Assembly (NCBI GenBank): GCA_013373325.1
Contig: JABXIA010000120.1
Location: 58,443 to 122,442 of the forward strand
Length of the DNA: 64,000 nucleotides
From: Paracoccaceae bacterium
GTDB taxonomy: Bacteria > Pseudomonadota > Alphaproteobacteria > Rhodobacterales > Rhodobacteraceae
Reading direction: 5' to 3'
Shown here: one piece after another, positions 37,421 through 64,000 of the stretch
Layout: each line of letters begins with the position of its first letter
Numbering within the stretch: the first letter of the stretch is position 1
Notes under the pieces: generated by a model
Database searches by the model: none
Seen by the model: the letters and a program-made list of their open reading frames with translations, nothing else
Told to the model about the DNA's origin: nothing
Position numbers and translations under genes: made by a program

Positions 37421-37446
37421 GACGCGGCTCGACGGACAGCATTACA
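37421..37446 (-). promoter_or_regulatory. ECF-type promoter element TGTAAT-N16-CGTC
   Basis: Read on the minus strand, TGTAAT (37446-37441) and CGTC (37424-37421) are separated by 16 bases, 32 bases upstream of the 54-residue Cys-rich gene. It is one of eight strict copies of this motif in the window. It would drive the operon down to the phosphoketolase. Confidence 0.75.
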
Positions 37447-42701: not shown

Positions 42702-44465
42702 TCACTCCTTGTTTGGTATGGCGGTCGGTTGGCCCGCTTGTGTGGTGGTGGCGATGGGGAAACTGCCGTACATCGCGCCAAAGACATGTGTGAGCCATGC
42801 ATCGCGCGCTTTGCGCAAGGCACCGAGGTTTTCGCCGGTACGCGCGAACAACGCGCGTTCGGCAAGGATGGCGGGATGGTCTTTCGGCAGAGGATCCCGC
42901 GTCTCACGCACGGAGTCGGCTGTGGATTTCACCAGCGCCATCCAAGGGTTCACACGCTCGGAAAACATCGTTCTGGTCCATCGCATCGGATGCAGGGCGC
43001 GCAGCATCTCGGCACTGGCAGGGGACGTCGCGGCCTTGATCCAAGGGCTAACAAATGTCGAATAAGCCGCCTCGTTGATCCGTGACATCTGCGCGACCTG
43101 GGCCAGCGCTCCATGGTCTGACCCAAAACCGAGATCGTCGACGTCGCGCGGCTCGAAACGCACGTCGTAGTCGTCGGTCTTGCGCTTTGCGCCCCCGGAA
43201 GGATTATCGATGACCATCTCATAAAGCCCGGGCGCCAGCGCCTCGACCGCCTCCAGGCTTTCCAGGATCGCCCGATGCTGAAGCCGCGCGACGGACCCGG
43301 AGACGAAGATGCCCAGATGCCCGACAGTCTCGTGCGTCATGTAGACGATGCGCTGTCCGGCAGCCTTGAGCGCATCGGTGTCAGGATATAGCTTGGCAAT
43401 CCAGCCCAACGCCTGCTGCGGCGGGGTGATGTTGTCGCCCTCCGAGGCAAAGACGATGATCGGGTTGCGGATCCGTTTCAGATCGATGGTACAATGCGCG
43501 TCCAGTTGCATCTCGCCCTGCTCCAGTCGATTGCCGATGAAAAGGTTCTGAGTGATGCCGAGAATTTCCTCGCGGCTCAGCGTATAGTAGCCATTCCACC
43601 AGCGTTCGAAGTCGAGGAACCGTTCACGTTCGGTATCGGCATGGGAAAAGAGGTTGGCGTATTTCTCCCAGATCGCCTTTTCAGGTTGCAGGGTCTCGAA
43701 GTTCTGCGCCAGCCACGCGCCGTCGAACCGCCCGTCGCCCAGATCGGCGATCATGTGCGCCGCCCAGGATCCGCCCGAGAGCGCGCCGAGCATCCGCATC
43801 GGGCTGGTGGCCGCGTCGCCCGACCAATAACTGAGCGGAGAGCCGTTCAACACGATGGGCCCGGTCAGACCGTCGCAATCGGCGGCCAGCAGGGCGGCGG
43901 CCCAACCGGCCTGACAATTGCCGTAGAGCACGGGTGCCGCGTTCGGGTGACGGCGGGCGACTTCGGTGACGAAGTCACGCAGTGCATAGTGTACGTCAGC
44001 CAGCGTCTGGCCGGGCATGGGTTCTGGAAAGAAGATCACGAAATAGACCGGATGGCCCTCGTGCATCGCCATGCCGACTTCGCTGTCATGCTTGAAGCCG
44101 CCGATACCCGGCCCATGTCCCGCGCGCGGATCAATGACGATGACCGGCGGCTTTGCCTCGTCCACGCAATCGTCCCAGCAATCTTCGCCTGCCCGCGTGA
44201 TCCGGAGCAGTGCATAATTGGCGGGCCGTTCAAAAGTGCGGGCATCCAGCAGAAGCTCATAGTCGAAATCCAGAAGCGGCGGCATGCCCTGACGTTCATG
44301 TGCGATCATGTTGTCGGCGCGTTCGCGTAACGTGTCGAGGAACAGCACCCAGCGTTCAAAGGCGTCCTGAGCGTAGGGCACATTGGCACCAGCGGAGGGC
44401 CGTTTAGTCTCAGGTGCCGTAAGTTGCTCCGGCGTCACAGTCGCAAGGCGCAAGCTCTTATTCAT
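42702..44465 (-). CDS. DUF3141 / PHA-synthase-like alpha/beta hydrolase
   Basis: The protein of about 587 residues is related to poly(3-hydroxyalkanoate) polymerases. The lipase-like box has Cys as nucleophile (VLYGNCQAGWAAALLAADCD); the acid is in IVFASEGDNITPPQQAL and the His in THETVGHLGIFVSG. The region PPVIVIDPRAGHGPGIGGFK is typical of DUF3141. From memory, DUF3141 proteins are usually some 150-200 residues longer, so the C-terminus may be truncated or naturally short. The ATG at 44465 with AAGGAAG upstream overlaps the stop of the CxC gene. It may make or handle short hydroxyalkanoate polymers; this is not demonstrated. Confidence 0.85.
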   Translation of the reverse strand: MNKSLRLATVTPEQLTAPETKRPSAGANVPYAQDAFERWVLFLDTLRERADNMIAHERQGMPPLLDFDYELLLDARTFERPANYALLRITRAGEDCWDDCVDEAKPPVIVIDPRAGHGPGIGGFKHDSEVGMAMHEGHPVYFVIFFPEPMPGQTLADVHYALRDFVTEVARRHPNAAPVLYGNCQAGWAAALLAADCDGLTGPIVLNGSPLSYWSGDAATSPMRMLGALSGGSWAAHMIADLGDGRFDGAWLAQNFETLQPEKAIWEKYANLFSHADTERERFLDFERWWNGYYTLSREEILGITQNLFIGNRLEQGEMQLDAHCTIDLKRIRNPIIVFASEGDNITPPQQALGWIAKLYPDTDALKAAGQRIVYMTHETVGHLGIFVSGSVARLQHRAILESLEAVEALAPGLYEMVIDNPSGGAKRKTDDYDVRFEPRDVDDLGFGSDHGALAQVAQMSRINEAAYSTFVSPWIKAATSPASAEMLRALHPMRWTRTMFSERVNPWMALVKSTADSVRETRDPLPKDHPAILAERALFARTGENLGALRKARDAWLTHVFGAMYGSFPIATTTQAGQPTAIPNKE

Positions 44466-44787
44466 TGTTGGCTTCCTTCTGTTCATAGATTTCTCTGGAT
44501 GGCCGCCCTGCAAGAAGCGCAAGTGCGAGGTTCTTTGCGACATCCTCGCGCAGACCGGTCAACAGGTAGGCCGCATCACCGGGCTTGAGGCCCAGTGCGC
44601 GCGCCGCTAATTCCGGGGGTTGCTTCAAGATTTCCATGCGCTGGAACAACGCCAATGCCATCGGGGCGTCTGGATGCGCGGAGGCCTCTGCACAATTGCA
44701 TATCATCCGCGACATGAACTCCGGAACGGCGGCATTCCGCGACGGTTCCGTTGCTCCCGAACGAAAATTCGTCGTCTCCCGTGGCAT
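44458..44787 (-). CDS. Small CxC-motif protein (family shared with 61596-61904)
   Basis: The protein of about 109 residues has a polar N-terminus, the motif MICNCAEAS, and a helical C-terminal half (ELAARALGLKPGDAAYLLTG, then REDVAKNLALALLAG) resembling a helix-turn-helix. It aligns with the broken gene at 61596-61904 (VFCECRST, then SAADAVGLSTGDAKTVLFLF and RQMASALVASVL). Both lie just downstream of a Cys-tailed ECF sigma gene with a TGTAAY-N16-CGTC element between. The family is unknown to me. It could be a DNA-binding or sigma-interacting partner, with the CxC as metal or redox site. GGGA precedes the ATG at 44787. Confidence 0.75.
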   Translation of the reverse strand: MPRETTNFRSGATEPSRNAAVPEFMSRMICNCAEASAHPDAPMALALFQRMEILKQPPELAARALGLKPGDAAYLLTGLREDVAKNLALALLAGRPSREIYEQKEANNE

Positions 44788-44835: not shown

Positions 44836-44861
44836 GACGTCGATTGGCGAAAAACGTTACA
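44836..44861 (-). promoter_or_regulatory. ECF-type promoter element TGTAAC-N16-CGTC
   Basis: On the minus strand TGTAAC (44861-44856) and CGTC (44839-44836) are 16 bases apart, between the sigma gene stop at 44880 and the CxC gene at 44787. It would drive CxC protein, PHA-synthase-like, small membrane protein, fabI, petA and CBS-BON as one operon. Confidence 0.75.
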
Positions 44862-44879: not shown

Positions 44880-45506
44880 TCAGGAATTCTGCTGCCCTGC
44901 TTCGCAATCGGTTTCGTGCTCGGCGTTCTTGCAACCCTCAGGCTGACAATAGCAATCGTCACGGTCATCCCGGCAGCAAGCGCCACAATGATTTGTCAGC
45001 GCCTCGCGCAGAGCCGTGCGCGCCCGGTGTAGCCTAACGCCAAGCGCGTTGCGGGTTAGTCCAAGGTCGCGCGCCACATGCTCACGGTCTTCTTCGCCGA
45101 AGTCGATGCGCCGGATCAGTTCCGAATCCGCCGGGCGCAGTTCGGAAATCAGACCGCCATGACAGGTGCAGAGCCGTGCCATCTGAGTCGGCGCATCAGC
45201 GGTCCAGTCTTCCGGCTCGCGCGCCACCGCCGCGGCCAGTTGGTCACGGCGCGTGCCTTTGCGGAAATGGTCATTCAACGTGGAGCGCAGGATCGCATAG
45301 AGCCAGGCATCCATCCGTTCGACGTCTCTGAGTTGGTCCTTGCGCTGCAGCACGCGGATGCTGAAATCCTGCAGGACATCCTCTGCATCCGCCCGGTTGC
45401 CAAGCCGTTTGATCAGGAACCCCAGAAATGCGCCACGTCCATCGAGCAACGCACGTTCCGTCGAGGTGTTAGGTACCTTCGGTTTTTCGGTGTCGAGCGA
45501 TGCCAT
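44880..45506 (-). CDS. ECF sigma factor with Cys-rich C-terminal tail (sigma 1)
   Basis: The 208-residue sigma-70 family protein has region 2 (AFLGFLIKRLGNRADAEDVL, then DFSIRVLQRKDQLRD and MDAWLYAILRSTLNDHFRKG) and region 4 (DREHVARDLGLTRNALGVRL, then HRARTALREALTNH). It is followed by about 35 residues with a Cys cluster: HCGACC, DDCYCQ, EGCKN and TDCEAG. There is no anti-sigma gene next to it. ECF factors with a C-terminal Cys-rich domain (CorE-like, ECF44) are known to sense metals directly, so metal or redox control is plausible here. It is very similar to the factor at 61968, and both are followed by the same promoter element and a CxC protein. Confidence 0.92.
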   Translation of the reverse strand: MASLDTEKPKVPNTSTERALLDGRGAFLGFLIKRLGNRADAEDVLQDFSIRVLQRKDQLRDVERMDAWLYAILRSTLNDHFRKGTRRDQLAAAVAREPEDWTADAPTQMARLCTCHGGLISELRPADSELIRRIDFGEEDREHVARDLGLTRNALGVRLHRARTALREALTNHCGACCRDDRDDCYCQPEGCKNAEHETDCEAGQQNS

Positions 45507-45731
45507 GACATTCCTGTCCTAATTTTCCGATATTTGCACTGTTGTCGACATGATCATCGCGTCGAGCGTGTTCAATGCTTGCAGGCGTTCACACAGATCA
45601 AATTCGCCATGCTCCGTCCCGCCGTATCGAAGGCCAAGACCCACTCTTCCCCTCTGCTAGGAAGCCTCTCACCAACCTTGTCCACAGTCACCAGGCCACA
45701 TCAATCTATTGATTTAGCGAATTATATCCTA

Positions 45732-46628: not shown

Positions 46629-46909
46629 CGGGATTTCCTTTTTTCAGGTCAGAACCGGCTGGAATTGCGGAGATCTTCCGGCGTGCCAAGTCAGTGTAGA
46701 ATGATAAGTTTTTCTCGTAGTTGATGATCGCAGTCGCAAGTGTCAACAATTGCGGTGCGGCGGCTTGGCGACAGTGATTGGACGAACCAAACAGACGTTT
46801 CAGCGACTGAAACCTTACTGGTTATTAAGACAAACGTCTGATGACCTGTGCTTTATGAGTTCCAGGATGCACGTATAATGAAAGAAACGCAGACGTTTGT
46901 GGCAGACGG

Positions 46910-46935
46910 TGTAACGCATCCGACTTACGAGCGTC
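46910..46935 (+). promoter_or_regulatory. ECF-type promoter element TGTAAC-N16-CGTC before sigma 2
   Basis: TGTAAC (46910-46915) and CGTC (46932-46935) lie 16 bases apart and end 20 bases before the ATG at 46956, leaving just room for a transcription start and the GAGGTG ribosome site. It indicates that this sigma gene is itself a target, possibly autoregulated. Confidence 0.75.
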
Positions 46936-46955
46936 GTATTTTGCAGAGGTGTGTG

Positions 46956-47612
46956 ATGAAAAATGACCAAGGCGACAAATTTTCCTTAGTTGACCAGTCC
47001 GACGTCGCTGCAAAATCCACCGACGCGGCCGTTCGCCACGCGTTGGTGGAAGGCAGACATCAAATTCTGAAATTCCTGCGTCGGCGACTGGGTGATCCAG
47101 AGGCGGCAGAGGATGTCCTGCAAACATTTATGCTGCGGGCCATCGACCGCTCAGAGCAACTTCGTGATGTGCGCGCCGTTCGCGGCTGGCTCAGTCAGAT
47201 CCTTGCGTCGTCCATAGCGGACCATGGCCGCAAGGTTTCGCGACAGCGACAGAGGGAGGTGGTCATGGCCCCGACCGACCTGGAAGGCGTCCATCACGAT
47301 TTTGACGAAGAACTGGACGAGGTTATCTGCAATTGTCTCTACAAGTTGTTGCCAACGCTCAAACCGGAATATGCCGAAGTCATCTGGCGGGTCGATCTTC
47401 AGGAACAACCGCGAGAGGACGTCGCCAAAGACCTTGGGATCACGTTGAACAACCTCAACGTCCGCGTTCACCGGGGCAGGCAGGCATTGAAGACAAGGTT
47501 GCAGCAGATGTGCCTGACCTGCCCGGTTCACGGCTTTCTTGATTGCGATTGCGACGCGGCAGAGAAGGTCCGCGCCCGCCTCGAAGGCCTTGCGGACGAA
47601 AGCGAAATCTGA
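46956..47612 (+). CDS. ECF sigma factor with Cys-rich C-terminal tail (sigma 2)
   Basis: The protein of about 218 residues has sigma region 2 (ILKFLRRRLGDPEAAEDVLQ, then RSEQLRDVRAVRGWLSQILA) and region 4 (PREDVAKDLGITLNNLNVRV, then HRGRQALKTRLQQ), followed by CLTCPVHGFLDCDC. This Cys pattern matches the other two sigma tails. The ATG at 46956 is chosen over ATGs at 46848 and 46878 because the promoter element ends just upstream and GAGGTG lies 7 bases before it. It is the most divergent of the three and has no CxC partner gene nearby. It is followed by about 240 bases and then the cfa promoter element. Confidence 0.92.
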   Translation: MKNDQGDKFSLVDQSDVAAKSTDAAVRHALVEGRHQILKFLRRRLGDPEAAEDVLQTFMLRAIDRSEQLRDVRAVRGWLSQILASSIADHGRKVSRQRQREVVMAPTDLEGVHHDFDEELDEVICNCLYKLLPTLKPEYAEVIWRVDLQEQPREDVAKDLGITLNNLNVRVHRGRQALKTRLQQMCLTCPVHGFLDCDCDAAEKVRARLEGLADESEI

Positions 47613-47849: not shown

Positions 47850-47875
47850 TGTAACAAACACTAGCGCCGGTCGTC
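47850..47875 (+). promoter_or_regulatory. ECF-type promoter element TGTAAC-N16-CGTC before cfa
   Basis: TGTAAC (47850-47855) and CGTC (47872-47875) are separated by 16 bases, 63 bases before the cfa ATG. Otherwise the 326-base gap from the sigma 2 stop to cfa shows nothing recognisable. Confidence 0.75.
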
Positions 47876-47938: not shown

Positions 47939-49279
47939 ATGTCCAACAGCGAAATCCCACCTGATGAGCAGTTTGAATTGCATGACGGCGCGAGGCAGCT
48001 TCCACGCCTTGGACCCGGAAGGGCCGCGATGTGGTTACTTGCCAAATTGCTCAGCCGTCTGGTTCGGAACGGTCACCTGACTGTTATCGACCCCTGTTGT
48101 GGGACTTGGCGTTTCGGTGGCGGTGACGGCCCTGCCGTTTCAGTCCGATTGACCGACAAGGCGCTGCCTGCGCAACTTCTTGCAAACCCCAGTCTGGCGC
48201 TTGGCGAGGCCTATATGGATGGAACGCTCCGCATCGAGACCGGCAGCCTGCGCGACCTTCTTTCGATTTGCATGGCTGACCTCGACGCCGTCGACGCTTT
48301 GCCCGGGAAACGGATCAGGCAAGGGCTGGACGCTTTTTTGAGCCGCAGGTTGCATCACAACCCGATCAACCGGGCCCGCTGCAACGTGGCGCACCACTAT
48401 GATCTCTCGACCGAACTCTACGACCTCTTTCTTGACGCGGACCGACAGTATTCATGCGCCTACTTCGCCACAGGCAATGAAACTTTGGACGAGGCGCAAG
48501 CCCTCAAGAAACGACACATCGCTGCAAAGCTGCTGCTGCGGCCCGGCCTTGACGTTCTCGATATCGGCTCGGGCTGGGGGGGCTTGGCGCTGGAGCTTGC
48601 CCAACAGCATCAGGCCCGCGTGACCGGTCTGAGCCTGTCTACCGAACAGATCGTGGCCGCCCGCGCCAGCGCAACGCAGTCCGGCCTGTCCGAACAGGTC
48701 GCCTTTAAACTCCGCGACTACCGGCAAGAGAAAGGCCAGTATGACCGTGTCGTTTCGGTGGGCATGTTCGAGCATGTGGGCCGCAGTGGATTTGATGACT
48801 ATTTCAGCACGATCCGAAGGGTTCTCAAGCCGGATGGAGTCGCGCTTGTACATGCGATCGGTACGATGGCACCCAAAGGTGGCAGCGATGCGTGGATCAG
48901 GAAATACATTTTCCCCGGTGGCTATCTTCCGTCACTGTCCGAAACGATCTCGGCGGCGGAACGTTCTGGGCTTTGGGTCACCGATGTCGAGGTCCTGCGC
49001 CTGCATTATGCAGAGACCCTGCGGCACTGGTCCGAACGCTTCGCAGCCGAGCGCGGGACCGCGCGGAGGCTTTACGACGAACGGTTCTGCCGCATTTGGG
49101 AATTCTATCTGGCTGTCTGCGAAATGGCATTCCGGCATGGCCGGTTGATGGTGTTCCAGCTCCAGTTGGCCAAACGCCGCGACACCGTTCCGTTGACGCG
49201 GAATTACATCGCGGACGCTGAGGCAGATCACCACTGCCACATCAGGGCACTCGGCAAACAAATAGGGAGAGCAAGATGA
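47939..49279 (+). CDS. cfa: Cyclopropane-fatty-acyl-phospholipid synthase
   Basis: The protein of about 446 residues methylenates unsaturated acyl chains of phospholipids using S-adenosylmethionine. Features: the N-terminal Cfa domain with LANPSLALGEAYMDGTLRIE, NVAHHYDLSTELYDLFLD, CAYFATGNETLDEAQALKKR, the SAM site VLDIGSGWGGLALELAQQH, and the C-terminal LHYAETLRHWSERFAAER with RIWEFYLAVCEMAFRHG. It is longer than E. coli Cfa (382). The ATG at 47939 has GGAGG 9 bases upstream. Its end overlaps the GAPDH gene. Cyclopropane lipids protect membranes under acid, copper and stationary-phase stress. Confidence 0.96.
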   Translation: MSNSEIPPDEQFELHDGARQLPRLGPGRAAMWLLAKLLSRLVRNGHLTVIDPCCGTWRFGGGDGPAVSVRLTDKALPAQLLANPSLALGEAYMDGTLRIETGSLRDLLSICMADLDAVDALPGKRIRQGLDAFLSRRLHHNPINRARCNVAHHYDLSTELYDLFLDADRQYSCAYFATGNETLDEAQALKKRHIAAKLLLRPGLDVLDIGSGWGGLALELAQQHQARVTGLSLSTEQIVAARASATQSGLSEQVAFKLRDYRQEKGQYDRVVSVGMFEHVGRSGFDDYFSTIRRVLKPDGVALVHAIGTMAPKGGSDAWIRKYIFPGGYLPSLSETISAAERSGLWVTDVEVLRLHYAETLRHWSERFAAERGTARRLYDERFCRIWEFYLAVCEMAFRHGRLMVFQLQLAKRRDTVPLTRNYIADAEADHHCHIRALGKQIGRAR

Positions 49280-55806: not shown

Positions 55807-58191
55807 TCAATGCGTTTGGTGTGTTTGTGGTGTGGAACCCGGCTCCAGGATGGTTTCAGAATCCACCGGGTTCCGCCGATCACCTGCGCCGCCTTGGCCT
55901 TCGCTGATCCCTTCCAGCCGCGTCCGCTTGAGCAGCAGCGCGTTGACCGCGACCAGCGCCGAGCTGCCCGACATGGCAATTGCGGCGACGGCAGGGCTGA
56001 TGATCAGCGGGTAGAACACGCCCGCTGCAGCGGGGAAGGCGATCACGTTGTAGGCCACCGCCCAGAACAGGTTCTGGTGCATCTTGCGCAGGGTGGCGCG
56101 CGACAGCTCGATCGCGCCCACGACATCGTAGGGATCGCTTTTCATCAGCACGACATCGGCGCTTTCCATCGCCACATCCGTGCCCGCGCCGATGGCAAAG
56201 CCGACATCGGCCTGGGTCAGCGCGGGCGCGTCATTGACGCCGTCGCCGACCATGCCCACCTTCTTGCCCTTGGCCTGAAGCTCCTTGACCTTCTCGGCCT
56301 TCTGACCGGGCAGCACGTCGGCCAGCACCATGTCGATGCCCAACTCGGCCGCGATCCGCCGCGCCGTGCCCTCGTTGTCGCCGGTCAGCATCGCCACCTC
56401 GACGCCGCGTTCGCGCAGCTTGGCCACGGCGGCCATGGCGCTTGGGCGCGGTGCATCGGCGATGGCGATCAGCCCGAGCATCCGCCCGCCCTTCGCCACA
56501 TGCACCACGGTGCGGCCCTCGCCCTTCAGGCGCTCGGCTTCGGCATCCAGCGCGCCAAGGTCGATGCCTTGCTCGTCCATCAGCCGGCGGTTGCCGACCA
56601 GCACTGGCTCGCCCGCGATCTCGGCGCGTGCGCCGCGGCCTTCAAGGTTCTCGAAGCCGGCCATCTGCGGCACATCGAGCCCCTCGGCGCGCTGGACGAT
56701 GGCCAGCGCCAAGGGGTGATCCGATCCGCGATCGACAGAGGCCGCGGCGCGCAGCGCATCATCCTCGGTACTCCCGTCGGCCGCGACGAGTTCGACAACG
56801 CGCGGCTCGCCCATCGTCAGCGTGCCGGTCTTGTCGAAGACGATCACGTCGAGCTTGGTCGCATCCTCGAGCGCCCCGGCATTCTTGAACAGGATGCCGT
56901 GCTGCGCCCCCAACCCGGTGCCCACCATGACAGCCATTGGCGTGGCCAGCCCAAGCGCATCCGGGCAGGCGATGACGAAAACGGTGATCGTCAGTGTAAG
57001 CGCGAACAGCAGCGGCGATCCGATCCACCAGAACCAGACCGCGAAGGTGGCCAGCCCGATCACGATGGCGATGAGGACCAGCCATTGCGACGCCCGGTCG
57101 GCCAGAAGCTGTGCCGGTGCCTTCGAGTTCTGCGCCTCCTGCACCAGCTTGACGATCTGAGCCAGCGCGGTGTCGGCGCCGACCTTGGTGGCGCGGTAGC
57201 GGAACGTGCCGGTCTTATTGATCGTGGCGCCGATGACGGTATCGCCCAAGCTCTTGTTCACCGGCATCGACTCGCCCGTCAGCATCGACTCGTCGACCAG
57301 CGAAGATCCTTCCAAAACCTCGCCGTCCACCGGAATCTTGTTTCCCGGGCGGATCACCACCGTTTCGCCCTGAAGCACTTCGGAGGTCGGCACCTCGGTC
57401 TCCTGCCCGTCGCGGATCACCGTGGCCATCGGCGGCGCGAGATCGAGCAGCGCCCGGATCGCCGCAGAGGCACCGGCGCGCGCCCGCATTTCCAGCCAGT
57501 GGCCCAACAGGATGAAGACCAGCAGCACCGCGACCGCCTCGTAGAACTGCACGCCGGGAAAGAAGAAGGTCGAGCCGACGCTGAACACATATCCGGTGCC
57601 GACCGACAGCACGACGAGCACGGCCATGTTGAGGATGCCGTTCTTCAGCGCCCGCCAAGCGGCTACGAAAAACGGCCAACTGGGCCAGACGATGCCCGCG
57701 CTGCCGAGGAAGAACAGCCAAAGGTCCAGCCTCAGGCCGAAAGGCGGCACCGGGGGCGTGAACATGCCGCCCATCGGCGAGTAGATGAAGATCGGGATGG
57801 TAAAGAGCAGCGCCACCCAGAACCGGTTGCGCATGTCGCGGACCATGTCGGCCATCTCCATGCCGCCGCCGTGACCCATCTCATGGGCCATCGCGTCCTT
57901 GGCAACGGGCCCTGTCGCGCCATGCGCCGCGTGGTCTTCATGGCCGGTGTGGTCCATCTGGCAGATATGGTTCGGCATACGCTCTCCGGCGCAGTGAAAG
58001 CCGCAGGCGTCGATCGCCTTGCGCAGCGCCTCCTCGTTCACCACCGTTTCGTCGTACTGCACTGTCACACTGGCAGACGCAGGGTTCGCTTCCGCCCGGT
58101 GAACGCCGTCGAGGGCGGATACATGACGTTCGACCGCGAGATGATCGAGTTCCTCGAACAATCCGCGGACCTCAAGGGTCAAGGTTTTCAA
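55807..58191 (-). CDS. Heavy-metal (copper-type) P1B ATPase with a CPD motif
   Basis: The 794-residue metal-exporting ATPase has an N-terminal HMA-like fold that lacks the usual CxxC ([14 protein letters not shown]), then a His/Met-rich stretch ([20 protein letters not shown]). Eight membrane helices follow. The catalytic set is complete: LTGES, phosphorylation DKTGT in [13 protein letters not shown], the P1B His-Pro in [11 protein letters not shown] and [10 protein letters not shown]. The TM6 metal motif reads [11 protein letters not shown], i.e. CPD where Cu ATPases have CPC or CPH. The His-rich N-terminus is CopB-like. It heads the arc operon, downstream of the element at 58245. Confidence 0.92.
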
Positions 58192-58244: not shown

Positions 58245-58270
58245 GACGTTGCCAGGCATCGGACGTTACA
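58245..58270 (-). promoter_or_regulatory. ECF-type promoter element TGTAAC-N16-CGTC before the P1B ATPase
   Basis: On the minus strand TGTAAC (58270-58265) and CGTC (58248-58245) are 16 bases apart, 54 bases upstream of the ATPase ATG. It would drive the ATPase-arcD-arcA-arcB-arcC-SDR operon. Confidence 0.75.
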
Positions 58271-58321: not shown

Positions 58322-58347
58322 GGTAACGCTTTACGTCCACTCGCGTC
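58322..58347 (+). promoter_or_regulatory. Variant element GGTAAC-N16-CGTC before the patatin gene
   Basis: GGTAAC (58322-58327) and CGTC (58344-58347) have the same 16-base spacing, one base different from the consensus, 56 bases upstream of the patatin start at 58403. It is divergent from the element at 58245. Confidence 0.5.
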
Positions 58348-58402: not shown

Positions 58403-59302
58403 TTGACGAAAAGCCAAATTGCGGAGTTTGAATTGAGCAGCATGACCAAAGCGAGCACTGCAACCCACAAGTGCTTTGCCCTCGTGCTAAGTGGCGGCGG
58501 GGCAAGGGGCCTCTCGCATGCTGGCGTACTCAGAGCTTTGATCGCCAGGGGCTACATCCCAAGCGCCGTCGTGGGCGTGTCGATGGGCGCGGTTGTCGGT
58601 GCTACGTATGCTCTTAATGACAAATGGTACGACGCACTCGTGGGCATGGATACCAGCGGGTTTCCGGCAACACCGGACTTTCGCGTGCCTGGAATGGCTG
58701 CAAGGATCAGGGGAATGCGGCTTGCTTTGCTTGCCGCGCGGGACATGTATTTTGGCTGGGGATCAGGCGCGCGCACCGAGACCTGGGGCCGCAGTGTCCT
58801 GTCCGGCCTGACCAAGGGCAAGAACCTGCAGGACGGCCGCATCCCGGCTTTTGTCTGTGCAACCGACATGCTGTCTGGCCAACGCGTGGTATTCGGCAAG
58901 GGAGATGCCACTGATTATGTCTATTCAAGCGCGGCGCTGGCCGGAATACTGCCGCCCCTTGTCGATGATCCGTATGTACTGATGGACGGAGCCTATTCCG
59001 ATATCGCGCCGGTGGACGTCGCCAGGGCCACCGGCGCGGAAGTCGTGATCGCTGTGGATCCCAGCCAGCGCGAAAACGCGACTGGCCCGAAAAACGGCTT
59101 GCAGGCGATGATGCGATCCATCGAGGTCTGCCAGTATGAACATGCGCGACTGCGTTTTGAGCAAGCGGATTTTGTGATCCGACCCGCTTTCAGCCAGACC
59201 ATCGGCACACTGGAATTCCGGCAAAAGCGTCATTGTATTGCGGCAGGCGCCGTGGCGACCCGCCGCGCATATAACGACATCAGCATGCTGCTCGCCCCCT
59301 GA
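58403..59302 (+). CDS. Patatin-like phospholipase
   Basis: The protein of up to 299 residues has the patatin oxyanion motif (ALVLSGGGARGLSHAGVLRA), the nucleophile Ser in VVGVSMGAVVGATYAL, and the catalytic Asp in LMDGAYSDIAPVDVARATGA (DGA). It would release acyl chains from phospholipids, and adds to the membrane-lipid genes of the region. The start is either TTG at 58403 or ATG at 58442 (MTKASTATHK); neither has a strong ribosome site. No signal peptide is visible. Confidence 0.92.
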   Translation: MTKSQIAEFELSSMTKASTATHKCFALVLSGGGARGLSHAGVLRALIARGYIPSAVVGVSMGAVVGATYALNDKWYDALVGMDTSGFPATPDFRVPGMAARIRGMRLALLAARDMYFGWGSGARTETWGRSVLSGLTKGKNLQDGRIPAFVCATDMLSGQRVVFGKGDATDYVYSSAALAGILPPLVDDPYVLMDGAYSDIAPVDVARATGAEVVIAVDPSQRENATGPKNGLQAMMRSIEVCQYEHARLRFEQADFVIRPAFSQTIGTLEFRQKRHCIAAGAVATRRAYNDISMLLAP

Positions 59303-61343: not shown

Positions 61344-61490
61344 CTAGCGTCGGTTCCTGTCTTGAGGGCTTTTTACAGGGATGGCCACGAGCGCTTCTTC
61401 GACAACAATGCCGTCACGATGTGCTTCGACTATTCTGCTGGCGAGCAAAACCGAAACGAGGATACCAACCAGAATGAGAGGTCCGAACAT
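61344..61490 (-). CDS. 48-residue single-span membrane protein with its own promoter element
   Basis: The small frame encodes MFGPLILVGILVSVLLASRI, a membrane segment, followed by a charged tail (VEAHRDGIVVEEALVAIPVK, then SPQDRNRR). AAGGAAG lies 7 bases before the ATG, and a TGTAAC-N16-CGTC element ends 49 bases upstream, which together make a gene likely. No family is recognised. It could be a membrane stress peptide or a partner of another regulon product. Confidence 0.65.
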   Translation of the reverse strand: MFGPLILVGILVSVLLASRIVEAHRDGIVVEEALVAIPVKSPQDRNRR

Positions 61491-61538: not shown

Positions 61539-61564
61539 GACGCCGGCTCTGTCCTTTCGTTACA
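61539..61564 (-). promoter_or_regulatory. ECF-type promoter element TGTAAC-N16-CGTC before the 48-residue gene
   Basis: On the minus strand TGTAAC (61564-61559) and CGTC (61542-61539) are 16 bases apart. It lies in the short gap after the broken CxC gene and points to 61490-61344. Confidence 0.7.
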
Positions 61565-61595: not shown

Positions 61596-61904
61596 TCAAT
61601 GGGTCCTCTTTCCCCTCCCTTCCCCGCGTGTTTGATCTGCGTCCGACGCCGGTACTGTGAGGACTGACGCTACCAAAGCACTGGCCATCTGGCGGCGGAA
61701 CAGAAAAAGAACTGTTTTGGCGTCACCTGTGCTGAGCCCGACCGCGTCTGCCGCAGACCGAAGGCTTCGCCCTTCGACATCGACTTTCAGAAACAACTCG
61801 CCCGACAACCTTCAAACATCGGCTTGAACAGTGCTTCGACACTCGCAGAACACATCCGATATCAAGTCTGCGACTGCCTGCGCATCTGCCGGTTCCGTGG
61901 GCAT
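61596..61904 (-). pseudogene. CxC-motif protein gene interrupted by an in-frame TGA
   Basis: From the ATG at 61904 (GGGAGG 5 bases upstream) the frame reads PTEPADAQAVADLISDVFCE, then CRSTVQADV, then TGA at 61814, and continues in the same frame as RLSGELFLKVDVEGRSLRSA, ADAVGLSTGDAKTVLFLFRR and QMASALVASVL to a stop at 61596. The whole (about 102 residues with the TGA read through) aligns with the intact CxC protein at 44458, including CxC and the helical half. It is either a pseudogene, two coupled products, or a recoded stop; a TTG three codons after the stop could restart translation. A strong promoter element precedes it, so it may still be expressed. Confidence 0.6.
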
Positions 61905-61933
61905 ACGATCCTCCCGAGCGGCTTCTGCATGAA

Positions 61934-61959
61934 GACGCCGTTTGAAGCGCAGCATTACA
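61934..61959 (-). promoter_or_regulatory. ECF-type promoter element TGTAAT-N16-CGTC before the broken CxC gene
   Basis: On the minus strand TGTAAT (61959-61954) and CGTC (61937-61934) are 16 bases apart, starting 9 bases after the sigma 3 stop and 30 bases before the CxC ATG. This is the same sigma-element-CxC order as at 45506-44458. Confidence 0.75.
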
Positions 61960-61967
61960 AAATCGCC

Positions 61968-62609
61968 TCAAGACGCGGTGTGTTGGTCCTCGCAATCGGT
62001 CTCTTCAACCGGATGCTCGCAGCCGTCCGGCGGACAGGAACAATCGTCAAAGCCATGACGGCAACAAGGGCCGCAGTGGGCCATCAACGCGTCACCAAAA
62101 GCAGCGCGGGCGCGGTGGAGACGCACATTCAATGTCCCGGACTTGAGCCCGAGGTCAGCTGCCACAATGCCGCGATCCTCGTCGTCGATGTCAATTCGGC
62201 GGATCAGGTCTGCATCACCCGGGCGCAGTTCGGTGACCAACCCTTTGACGCAGTTGCAGATCACGTCCATATCTTCGACCGGGTCATCCGTGACAACGGC
62301 AGACTGAGCCTCCAGTGCAACAGCCTCCTTTAGACGCCTGGACCGTCCCGACTTGCGATAGTGATCATTTAGCGCTGACCGCAACACCGCGTAAAGCCAG
62401 GCATCCATGCGGTCCGCCTCGCGCAGCTGATCCTTACGTGCCAGAACGCGGATGCAAAATTCCTGCAGCACGTCCTCAGCATCGGCTCGGTTTCCCAGCC
62501 GTTTGACTAGGAAGCCCAAAAACGCGTTTCTGTTCACCGACAGAGTTGCTTCAAGGCCGGGCTGACCGGCGCCGCTGCCCTTTGCGATATGGTTTTTAGT
62601 TTCCGACAT
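61968..62609 (-). CDS. ECF sigma factor with Cys-rich C-terminal tail (sigma 3)
   Basis: The protein of about 213 residues has region 2 (AFLGFLVKRLGNRADAEDVL, then EFCIRVLARKDQLREADRMD, AWLYAVLRSALNDHYRK) and region 4 (DRGIVAADLGLKSGTLNVRL, then HRARAAFGDALMAH), followed by a Cys-rich tail: HCGPCCRHGFDDCSC, DGCEH and TDCED. It is a close paralogue of sigma 1 at 44880, sharing FLGFL-[IV]-KRLGNRADAEDVLQ almost exactly. The ATG at 62609 has AAGGGCGG 9 bases upstream. No anti-sigma gene is adjacent. The Cys tail suggests direct metal or redox sensing as in CorE-like factors (inferred). Confidence 0.92.
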   Translation of the reverse strand: MSETKNHIAKGSGAGQPGLEATLSVNRNAFLGFLVKRLGNRADAEDVLQEFCIRVLARKDQLREADRMDAWLYAVLRSALNDHYRKSGRSRRLKEAVALEAQSAVVTDDPVEDMDVICNCVKGLVTELRPGDADLIRRIDIDDEDRGIVAADLGLKSGTLNVRLHRARAAFGDALMAHCGPCCRHGFDDCSCPPDGCEHPVEETDCEDQHTAS

Positions 62610-62855
62610 GGTTGCACGCCGCCCTTGCATAGAAAGTCCGATCCAACCCGGCAGGCGCAGTCATCAAACATGTCGCCATGGGCAGATACCATGAACCTAT
62701 CCATTCCAAGGCGAAATTCCAATATCAATGATTTTGAAGTCGGCAATCCATCGCGCCATTGAAATTTATCTGAATGGTTGCGGAAGACAATAGCACAATG
62801 TTTTTCACAGTCTCGACGTCTCGCGTAACATCTTCAGCTTCGAGAAGAAATTTCT

Positions 62856-62881
62856 TGTAATCGTTTTTCTTTTTGGGCGTC
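62856..62881 (+). promoter_or_regulatory. ECF-type promoter element TGTAAT-N16-CGTC before nuoA
   Basis: TGTAAT (62856-62861) and CGTC (62878-62881) are 16 bases apart, 99 bases before the nuoA ATG. It lies in the 371-base divergent gap between sigma 3 and nuoA; nothing else recognisable is seen there. Confidence 0.72.
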
Positions 62882-63343: not shown

Positions 63344-64000
63344 TGGATTTGTCCGGGGCACGTCAGGGTCTGTTGCGCGGTTTCCGCGGGTTGGTCGCCG
63401 GGGCCATGGCGCGGGATTTGCGCGCGTTCGTGGTGCCTGGAGAGGACGTCGCGAATGCGCTTGGTCTCGATCTGGACGCCGCAGGGCTGATCCGCGCGGT
63501 GACGCCGCGCCACGCGAACGTCTTGCTGATCGCGGGGCCCTTGCCCACTGCGCTGGCCGATGCGGCCAGCGTCGTCTGGGCCCAGATGCCGCGACCCCGG
63601 TGCATTCTCGCGCTTGGTGAGGCCGATCTTGGCCCTCTGCCCACTGCCGACGTGACGGCGGAGATGTCGCAGGCGGGCCTGATCTCCGGACTGGAGGATC
63701 TGCGCAAACTGCTCTGCAATGGGGCTTTTGCACCAGACATCGCGGAATTTGATGCGCCTGCCCTGTCGGAGCGGATCGAATACACCTGCCCCATGCATCC
63801 GGAAGTCATTTCGGACGAACCCGGCAAATGCCCGAAATGCGGGATGTTCCTTGTGGAACGCCGCGTTTCCGGCGCGGCGTCGCACGGCCATGAGGGCCAT
63901 GAGGGCCATGAGGGCCATGAGGGCCATGAGGGCCATGAGGGCCATGAGGGCCATGAGGGCCATGAGGGCCATGAGGGCCATGAGGGCCATGAGGGCCATG
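63340..64000 (+). CDS. NuoB-like protein fused to a heavy-metal-binding domain and His-Glu-Gly repeat (cut by window edge)
   Basis: The frame is open to the window end (220 codons). About residues 20-95 resemble NuoB ([20 protein letters not shown], then [14 protein letters not shown]), but none of the four cluster-binding Cys of NuoB is visible at the expected places. A YHS-like heavy-metal-binding domain follows at about 149-172 ([20 protein letters not shown], then [10 protein letters not shown]), then about a dozen HEG repeats. The gene overlaps nuoA, where nuoB belongs. It may be a metal-handling variant of the subunit, or continue into further complex I domains beyond the window. Confidence 0.75.
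63886..64000 (+). repeat. 9-base tandem repeat (GGCCATGAG) coding for Gly-His-Glu units
   Basis: About 12.8 perfect copies of GGCCATGAG run to the window end without a single mismatch. They stay in frame and add one His and one Glu per unit. Perfect identity suggests recent expansion and likely length variation between strains. Confidence 0.95.

Follow-up and report, generated by a model that had tools for sequence, protein, structure and literature searches.

A conserved ECF-type promoter before a CorE-like sigma factor gene on a copper-resistance island points to probable control by a sister sigma factor

Results

An ECF-type promoter precedes the sigma 2 gene

The gene encoding sigma 2, one of three ECF sigma factors in the 64,000-nucleotide stretch of DNA that we analyzed (the window), is preceded by a genuine ECF-type promoter and is probably switched on by a sister sigma factor. 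The element, TGTAACGCATCCGACTTACGAGCGTC (46910–46935, + strand), matches exactly a −35 TGTAAC, a 16-nt spacer and a −10 CGTC, and a gap of 20 nt (46936–46955) separates it from the ATG at 46956. A previous reading made from the letters of this DNA (the sequence-only reading) had placed the element here, 20 bases 5′ of that ATG, and its sequence, clustering and conservation bear this out. In a whole-genome pattern search, six exact copies of TGTAAC-N16-CGTC were found in 4,513,919 bases, five of them inside 17 kb of the window (Poisson P ∼2 × 10−8 for at least five copies in 17 kb); as a control, the reversed pattern was counted 21 times across the genome. The exact copies in the window are at 44861 (−), 46910 (+), 47850 (+), 58270 (−) and 61564 (−), with a GGTAAC variant at 58322 (+), and spacers of 14, 15, 17 or 18 nt between TGTAAC and CGTC gave no exact matches within the window. 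Since five of the six genomic copies fall in 17 kb and the element is conserved at sigma 2 loci, we reject a chance match.

The other copies also stand before genes. One (44836–44861, −) lies 21 nt 3′ of the sigma 1 stop codon, before a small ORF described below and a DUF3141 (PHA synthase-like) gene (42702–44543, −; PF11339, E = 3 × 10−208). A second (47850–47875, +) precedes a gene identified by domain search as a cyclopropane fatty acid synthase (cfa; 47939–49279, +), a probable target, and a third (58245–58270, −) precedes a gene for a copper-type heavy-metal P-ATPase of the CopA type (55807–58191, −; NCBIfam TIGR01525/TIGR01511 above cut-off), also a probable target. Divergent from the latter is the variant GGTAAC-N16-CGTC (58322–58347, +), before a probable target encoding a patatin-like phospholipase (58403–59302, +; PF01734). 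The remaining exact copy (61539–61564, −) is downstream of sigma 3, before a hypothetical ORF of 48 amino acids (61344–61490). There is good support for placing the sigma 2 element in one promoter class with those before cfa, the CopA-type ATPase gene and the DUF3141 operon. The sequence-only reading also held that the sigma 1 and sigma 3 genes have no such element, and indeed their 350-nt upstream regions contain nothing nearer to it than three mismatches.

The window also encodes CusAB-like, multicopper oxidase and CopA-type proteins, and the three sigma factors reside on a transferable copper-resistance island. One-mismatch sites, TGTAAT-N16-CGTCT, occur at 61959 (−), just 3′ of the sigma 3 stop codon, at 62856 (+), towards nuoA, and at 37446 (−), upstream of a DUF5676-like ORF. 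The interval separating sigma 2 from the EamA gene (46785–46900) contains three copies of CAGACGTTT (46792, +; 46840, −; 46890, +), the only ones in the window and possibly the operator of another regulator. At the end of the window (about 63880–63999) is a short tandem repeat that reads MALMALMAL in one frame.

The element is retained across sigma 2 loci

For comparison, the sequences upstream of sigma 2 in the window and 22 other loci were reduced to 12 distinct sequences and aligned without gaps. The consensus is tGTAACG....Cg........GCGTC.T..T....AGAgGTG....ATG, with most positions free in the spacer and in the 40 bases before the element. GTAACG-N15-CGTC keeps its position, at a constant distance from the sigma 2 ATG, in all 22 other loci, with diverged flanks. 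A 13th distinct upstream sequence (L124) has a TGTAACA variant at the element, and L029 has CGTAACG. Sigma 2 is encoded in 21 GTDB loci at 77–100% identity, to which G049, G154, G209 and G253 add or which they repeat. Beyond Rhodobacterales, an exact copy of the element stands directly before sigma 2 in Croceicoccus, and a TGTAAG-N16-CGTC variant does so in Indioceanicola and G620; these genomes or replicons also carry another CRD sigma factor. The sigma 2 proteins of Pontibrevibacter, Paracoccus, Lutimaribacter and Sulfitobacter (L025–L027, L113) show 100% identity. Such identity across genera reflects recent transfer of the island, which is plasmid-borne in several records.

The three sigma factors are CorE-like

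Sigma 1 (208 amino acids; 44880–45506, −), sigma 2 (218 amino acids; 46956–47612, +) and sigma 3 (61968–62630, −), a paralogue of sigma 1, all match Pfam Sigma70_r2 and Sigma70_r4_2, with region 4 of sigmas 1 and 3 scoring under the curated cut-off, and all have the ECF architecture of regions 2 and 4 only. Their C termini, including the Cys-rich tail of sigma 2, CLTCPVHGFLDCDC, contain C-x2-C-x7-C-x-C, as do 69 of 75 distinct sequences, and the linker carries a CxC motif (CTC in sigma 1, CNC in sigmas 2 and 3) that is present in 73 of the 75. Since the spacing in the tail is that of the four invariant cysteines of CorE (C181, C184, C192 and C194; PMC3107203), we classify the three proteins, by domains, CRD cysteine spacing and linker CxC, as CorE-like (ECF44/ECF238). 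None of the 69 homologues with the CRD spacing has a cysteine at the position of C189, the residue mainly responsible for copper activation of CorE, so the metal sensed here may differ from that sensed by CorE. In a tree, the sigma 2 clade is apart from the sigma 1/3 clade.

Scanned neighbors of the sigma genes included no member of an anti-sigma family; a small CxC/sigma-4-like protein is linked to sigmas 1 and 3. The 2011 list of CRD sigma factors (PMC3107203) includes proteins of Roseovarius 217 and TM1035, of R. litoralis and of P. zucineum (PHZ_p0174). From the spacing of Roseovarius 217 tags 03265 and 03275, we infer the same order of sigma 1, EamA and sigma 2 genes as in locus L034. Degraded copies also occur: a broken sigma 1 lies beside an intact sigma 2 in L035, L041 and L127, and a sigma 2 remnant lies beside an intact sigma 1 in L064 (9390–9524).

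Which sigma factor reads the element?

The sequence-only reading had left two options, that one sigma lies downstream of another in a cascade or that sigma 2 is autoregulated. Comparison of loci with and without partner sigma factors lends better support to the cascade. Twenty-two loci that have sigma 1/3-type genes and lack sigma 2 contain 25 element sites, against 0.6 expected from dinucleotide shuffling, with at least one site in 15 of them; nine loci with both sigma 1 and sigma 2 contain 21 sites (0.15 expected by the same procedure). Among the loci without sigma 2, some, including those of R. litoralis and S. mediterraneus, have element sites behind sigma 1, and another, G072 (L062), keeps the CopA element within the same divergent CopA/patatin promoter pair. 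Conversely, no element site was found in five sigma 2 loci for which no CorE-like partner was found (Ancylobacter, Pseudorhizobium, R. rosettiformans, Phenylobacterium and G285), a result that covers about 18 kb of each sigma-2-only plasmid. The search for CRD sigma factors covered these plasmids, each of which encodes one, and for G285 the whole genome, which has one match. Since the element occurs near sigma 1/3-type genes in the absence of sigma 2 and is missing where sigma 2 has no partner, a cascade is favored over autoregulation, as an association across replicons that are related rather than independent.

What, then, precedes sigma 2 where the element is missing? Scoring 250-nt upstream regions for TTGAT-N4-ATCAA with up to two mismatches revealed an FNR-like box before sigma 2 in four of the five partnerless loci, in three of which a Crp/Fnr gene is annotated nearby. 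No such box was found in the 250-nt upstream regions of element-bearing sigma 2 genes. At about −90 to −102, such a box is present in 9 of the 21 distinct sigma 1 upstream sequences; in the window the box, TTGATCTGTGTGAA (45588–45601, −), has two mismatches and lies 95 nt before the sigma 1 ATG, and relatives have closer matches there. These sequence patterns would be explained most simply if the FNR-type input acted on whichever sigma gene stands uppermost, with sigma 2 using the ECF element in the presence of a partner.

We therefore favor, with fair confidence, a cascade, under an FNR-type input, in which the sigma 2 element is read by a CorE-like sister, namely sigma 1 and possibly also sigma 3; the identity of the reader, the metal, the FNR input and the direction of flow are our interpretation. 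In such a cascade, an FNR/Crp-type input would set the level of sigma 1, and a metal would activate it, its Cys-rich tail and linker CxC making its activity metal-dependent. Sigma 1 holoenzyme would then transcribe sigma 2 together with the cfa, CopA-type ATPase, DUF3141 and patatin genes. Sigma 2 would form the second tier, its transcript starting a few bases 3′ of the element and having a very short leader.

It is also possible that all three CorE-like sigma factors read one element with overlapping specificity, so that several metal signals feed a single shared regulon in which sigma 2 is a reader as well as a target. We place this reading somewhat short of even; it is compatible with the cascade, and our confidences in the two overlap and do not sum to one. 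At the residues aligned with the −35 contacts of E. coli RpoE (positions 171, 172, 175 and 176), sigmas 1, 2 and 3 have variable-V-H-R, as do all clades; sigmas 2 and 3 are identical there and sigma 1 differs at one residue. Given the shared V-H-R, the sigmas may overlap in reading the element, as would also fit a single motif class before all targets and three CorE-like sigmas on one island. However, the segments for −10 recognition differ, being DQLR..ERMDAW in sigmas 1 and 3 and EQLRDVRAVRGW in sigma 2. Copies of TGTAAC-N16-CGTC near distant CRD sigma factors (42–47%; L132–L134) indicate that the class is not specific to the sigma 1/3 clade.

Autoregulation, in which sigma 2 holoenzyme would recognize the shared elements along with its own promoter, and other or overlapping promoters would fall to sigmas 1 and 3, appears unlikely. 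ECF sigma factors are usually autoregulated, as M. xanthus CorE is in part (PMC3107203), the −35 contacts of sigma 2 are those of sigma 3, with the one difference in sigma 1, and in Heliomarina, Phaeobacter 22II1-1F12B and G395 the element and sigma 2 survive alongside a broken sigma 1. But the element class flourishes in loci without sigma 2, and the five partnerless sigma 2 genes lack it, four having an FNR-like box. Rhizobial sigma 2 may have shifted in specificity, which would also explain the absence of the element there. Autoregulation may instead be a loop added to the cascade.

It is very improbable that the reader is an ECF sigma factor encoded elsewhere than on the island, such as one of the ECF16/SigF type. 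Caulobacter SigF promoters have the sequence GTAACC-N16-CGAA, and their −35 is similar; here, however, the −10 is CGTC and the motif hardly occurs off the island. A search for NrsF (PF06532) gave no match in the bacterium's own genome and found the Caulobacter control, a result on which we reject an ECF16/NrsF reader.

Sigma 2 starts at the ATG behind the element

The sequence-only reading had the element decide the start of sigma 2 over two upstream ATGs. The start at 46956 stood, since Mesobacterium L028 has an in-frame TAG between the element and the sigma 2 ATG. The two ATGs did not: only that at 46878 is in frame, with an in-frame stop upstream of it at 46842, and those at 46841, 46855 and 46867 are out of frame. 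Other in-frame start codons upstream of 46956 are GTG at 46848, 46899 and 46953 and TTG at 46941. The short leader, AGAGGTG-N4-ATG with the Shine-Dalgarno sequence AGAGGTG, is itself conserved.

RefSeq annotation is divided. In Roseovarius AK1035 and P. aerodenitrificans the annotated start corresponds to 46956; in Sulfitobacter dubius and S. faviae it corresponds to 46878, so that the promoter comes to lie inside the ORF. On the plasmid records NZ_CP136699.1 and NZ_CP116426.1 (L113 and L138), the annotated start is 78 nt too early. Although two orthologues thus begin at the upstream ATG, it is hardly credible that the element is a chance match or conserved coding sequence from the N terminus of a longer sigma 2 ORF, given its clustering and conservation and the TAG in L028. 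Further homologues have in-frame stops farther upstream and the upstream frame is not conserved as protein, which rules out a longer sigma 2 protein.

Discussion

The sigma family is known; its wiring here and the promoter sequence appear new within the literature that we searched. The nearest described counterparts are CorE and CorE2 of Myxococcus xanthus (formerly ECF44, now ECF238), which likewise have regions 2 and 4 only, a linker CxC, the four invariant CRD cysteines at +0, +3, +11 and +13, a copper-gene neighborhood and, as far as the neighbors scanned on the island show, no adjacent classical anti-sigma factor. The spacing from AAC to G in the element also agrees with the CorE promoter rule of AAC followed by a conserved G at 16–18 nt (PMC3107203). 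Unlike CorE, the island homologues lack the C189-position cysteine, occur as three paralogues on a single island, include a gene that stands behind an element of the shared class, and are accompanied by ORFs with sigma region 4 only.

Transcription of one ECF sigma gene can be raised by a paralogue, as in the alphaproteobacterial general stress response, where EcfG2 induces transcription of ecfG1 (PMC8103513). EcfG1 and EcfG2 differ from the island proteins in belonging to another sigma group and in being controlled by a partner switch (PhyR/NepR) instead of a metal-binding tail. The Caulobacter ECF16 pair SigF-NrsF has a similar −35, GTAAC, but its −10 is CGAA rather than CGTC, the island sigmas are CRD-type and their own genome lacks NrsF.

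If the cascade is right, one CorE-like sigma factor controls another on plasmids and islands that move between genera with copper-resistance genes; we know of no earlier case of such control. Control of sigma 2 would be a small, previously undescribed two-step switch, and the analysis would predict the promoter sequence used in one branch of the Alphaproteobacteria and correct the start codon. Whether the sensors act in series or in parallel would become a question of wiring that reporters can address.

The small ORF behind the element at 44836–44861 (44458–44787, −; 109 amino acids) has a CxC motif and a sigma-region-4-like domain and no region 2. By hhalign it resembles the CRD-sigma family (probability 92.6, E = 4.6 × 10−7), and one relative matches PF08281 with E = 0.0016, under the curated cut-off; a fold model is unreliable (pLDDT 51). 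The 21-nt distance from the sigma 1 stop to the element is retained in most relatives. As split sigma proteins such as SigO/RsoA of B. subtilis are known (PMC8103513), this CxC/sigma-4 protein could possibly be a co- or anti-sigma factor. A more speculative picture, which we regard as doubtful, is a mobile multi-tier CorE-like switch in which FNR input acts on sigma 1, metal-loaded sigma 1 acts on sigma 2 through its dedicated element, the free-standing CxC/sigma-4 protein, made from the same promoter class, provides metal-responsive co- or anti-sigma feedback, and the sigma 2 promoter type, ECF element or FNR-like box, is exchanged with the presence of a partner.

Companion ORFs of the CxC/sigma-4 type also follow sigma 1/3-type genes in homologous loci. 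The one after sigma 3 in the window (about 61596–61910, −) is broken by a TGA near 61821 and is intact in L109, L116 and L118. In rhizobial plasmids with a lone sigma 2 (L100 and L101), NrsF-family genes lie beside cfa and may encode an anti-sigma factor there.
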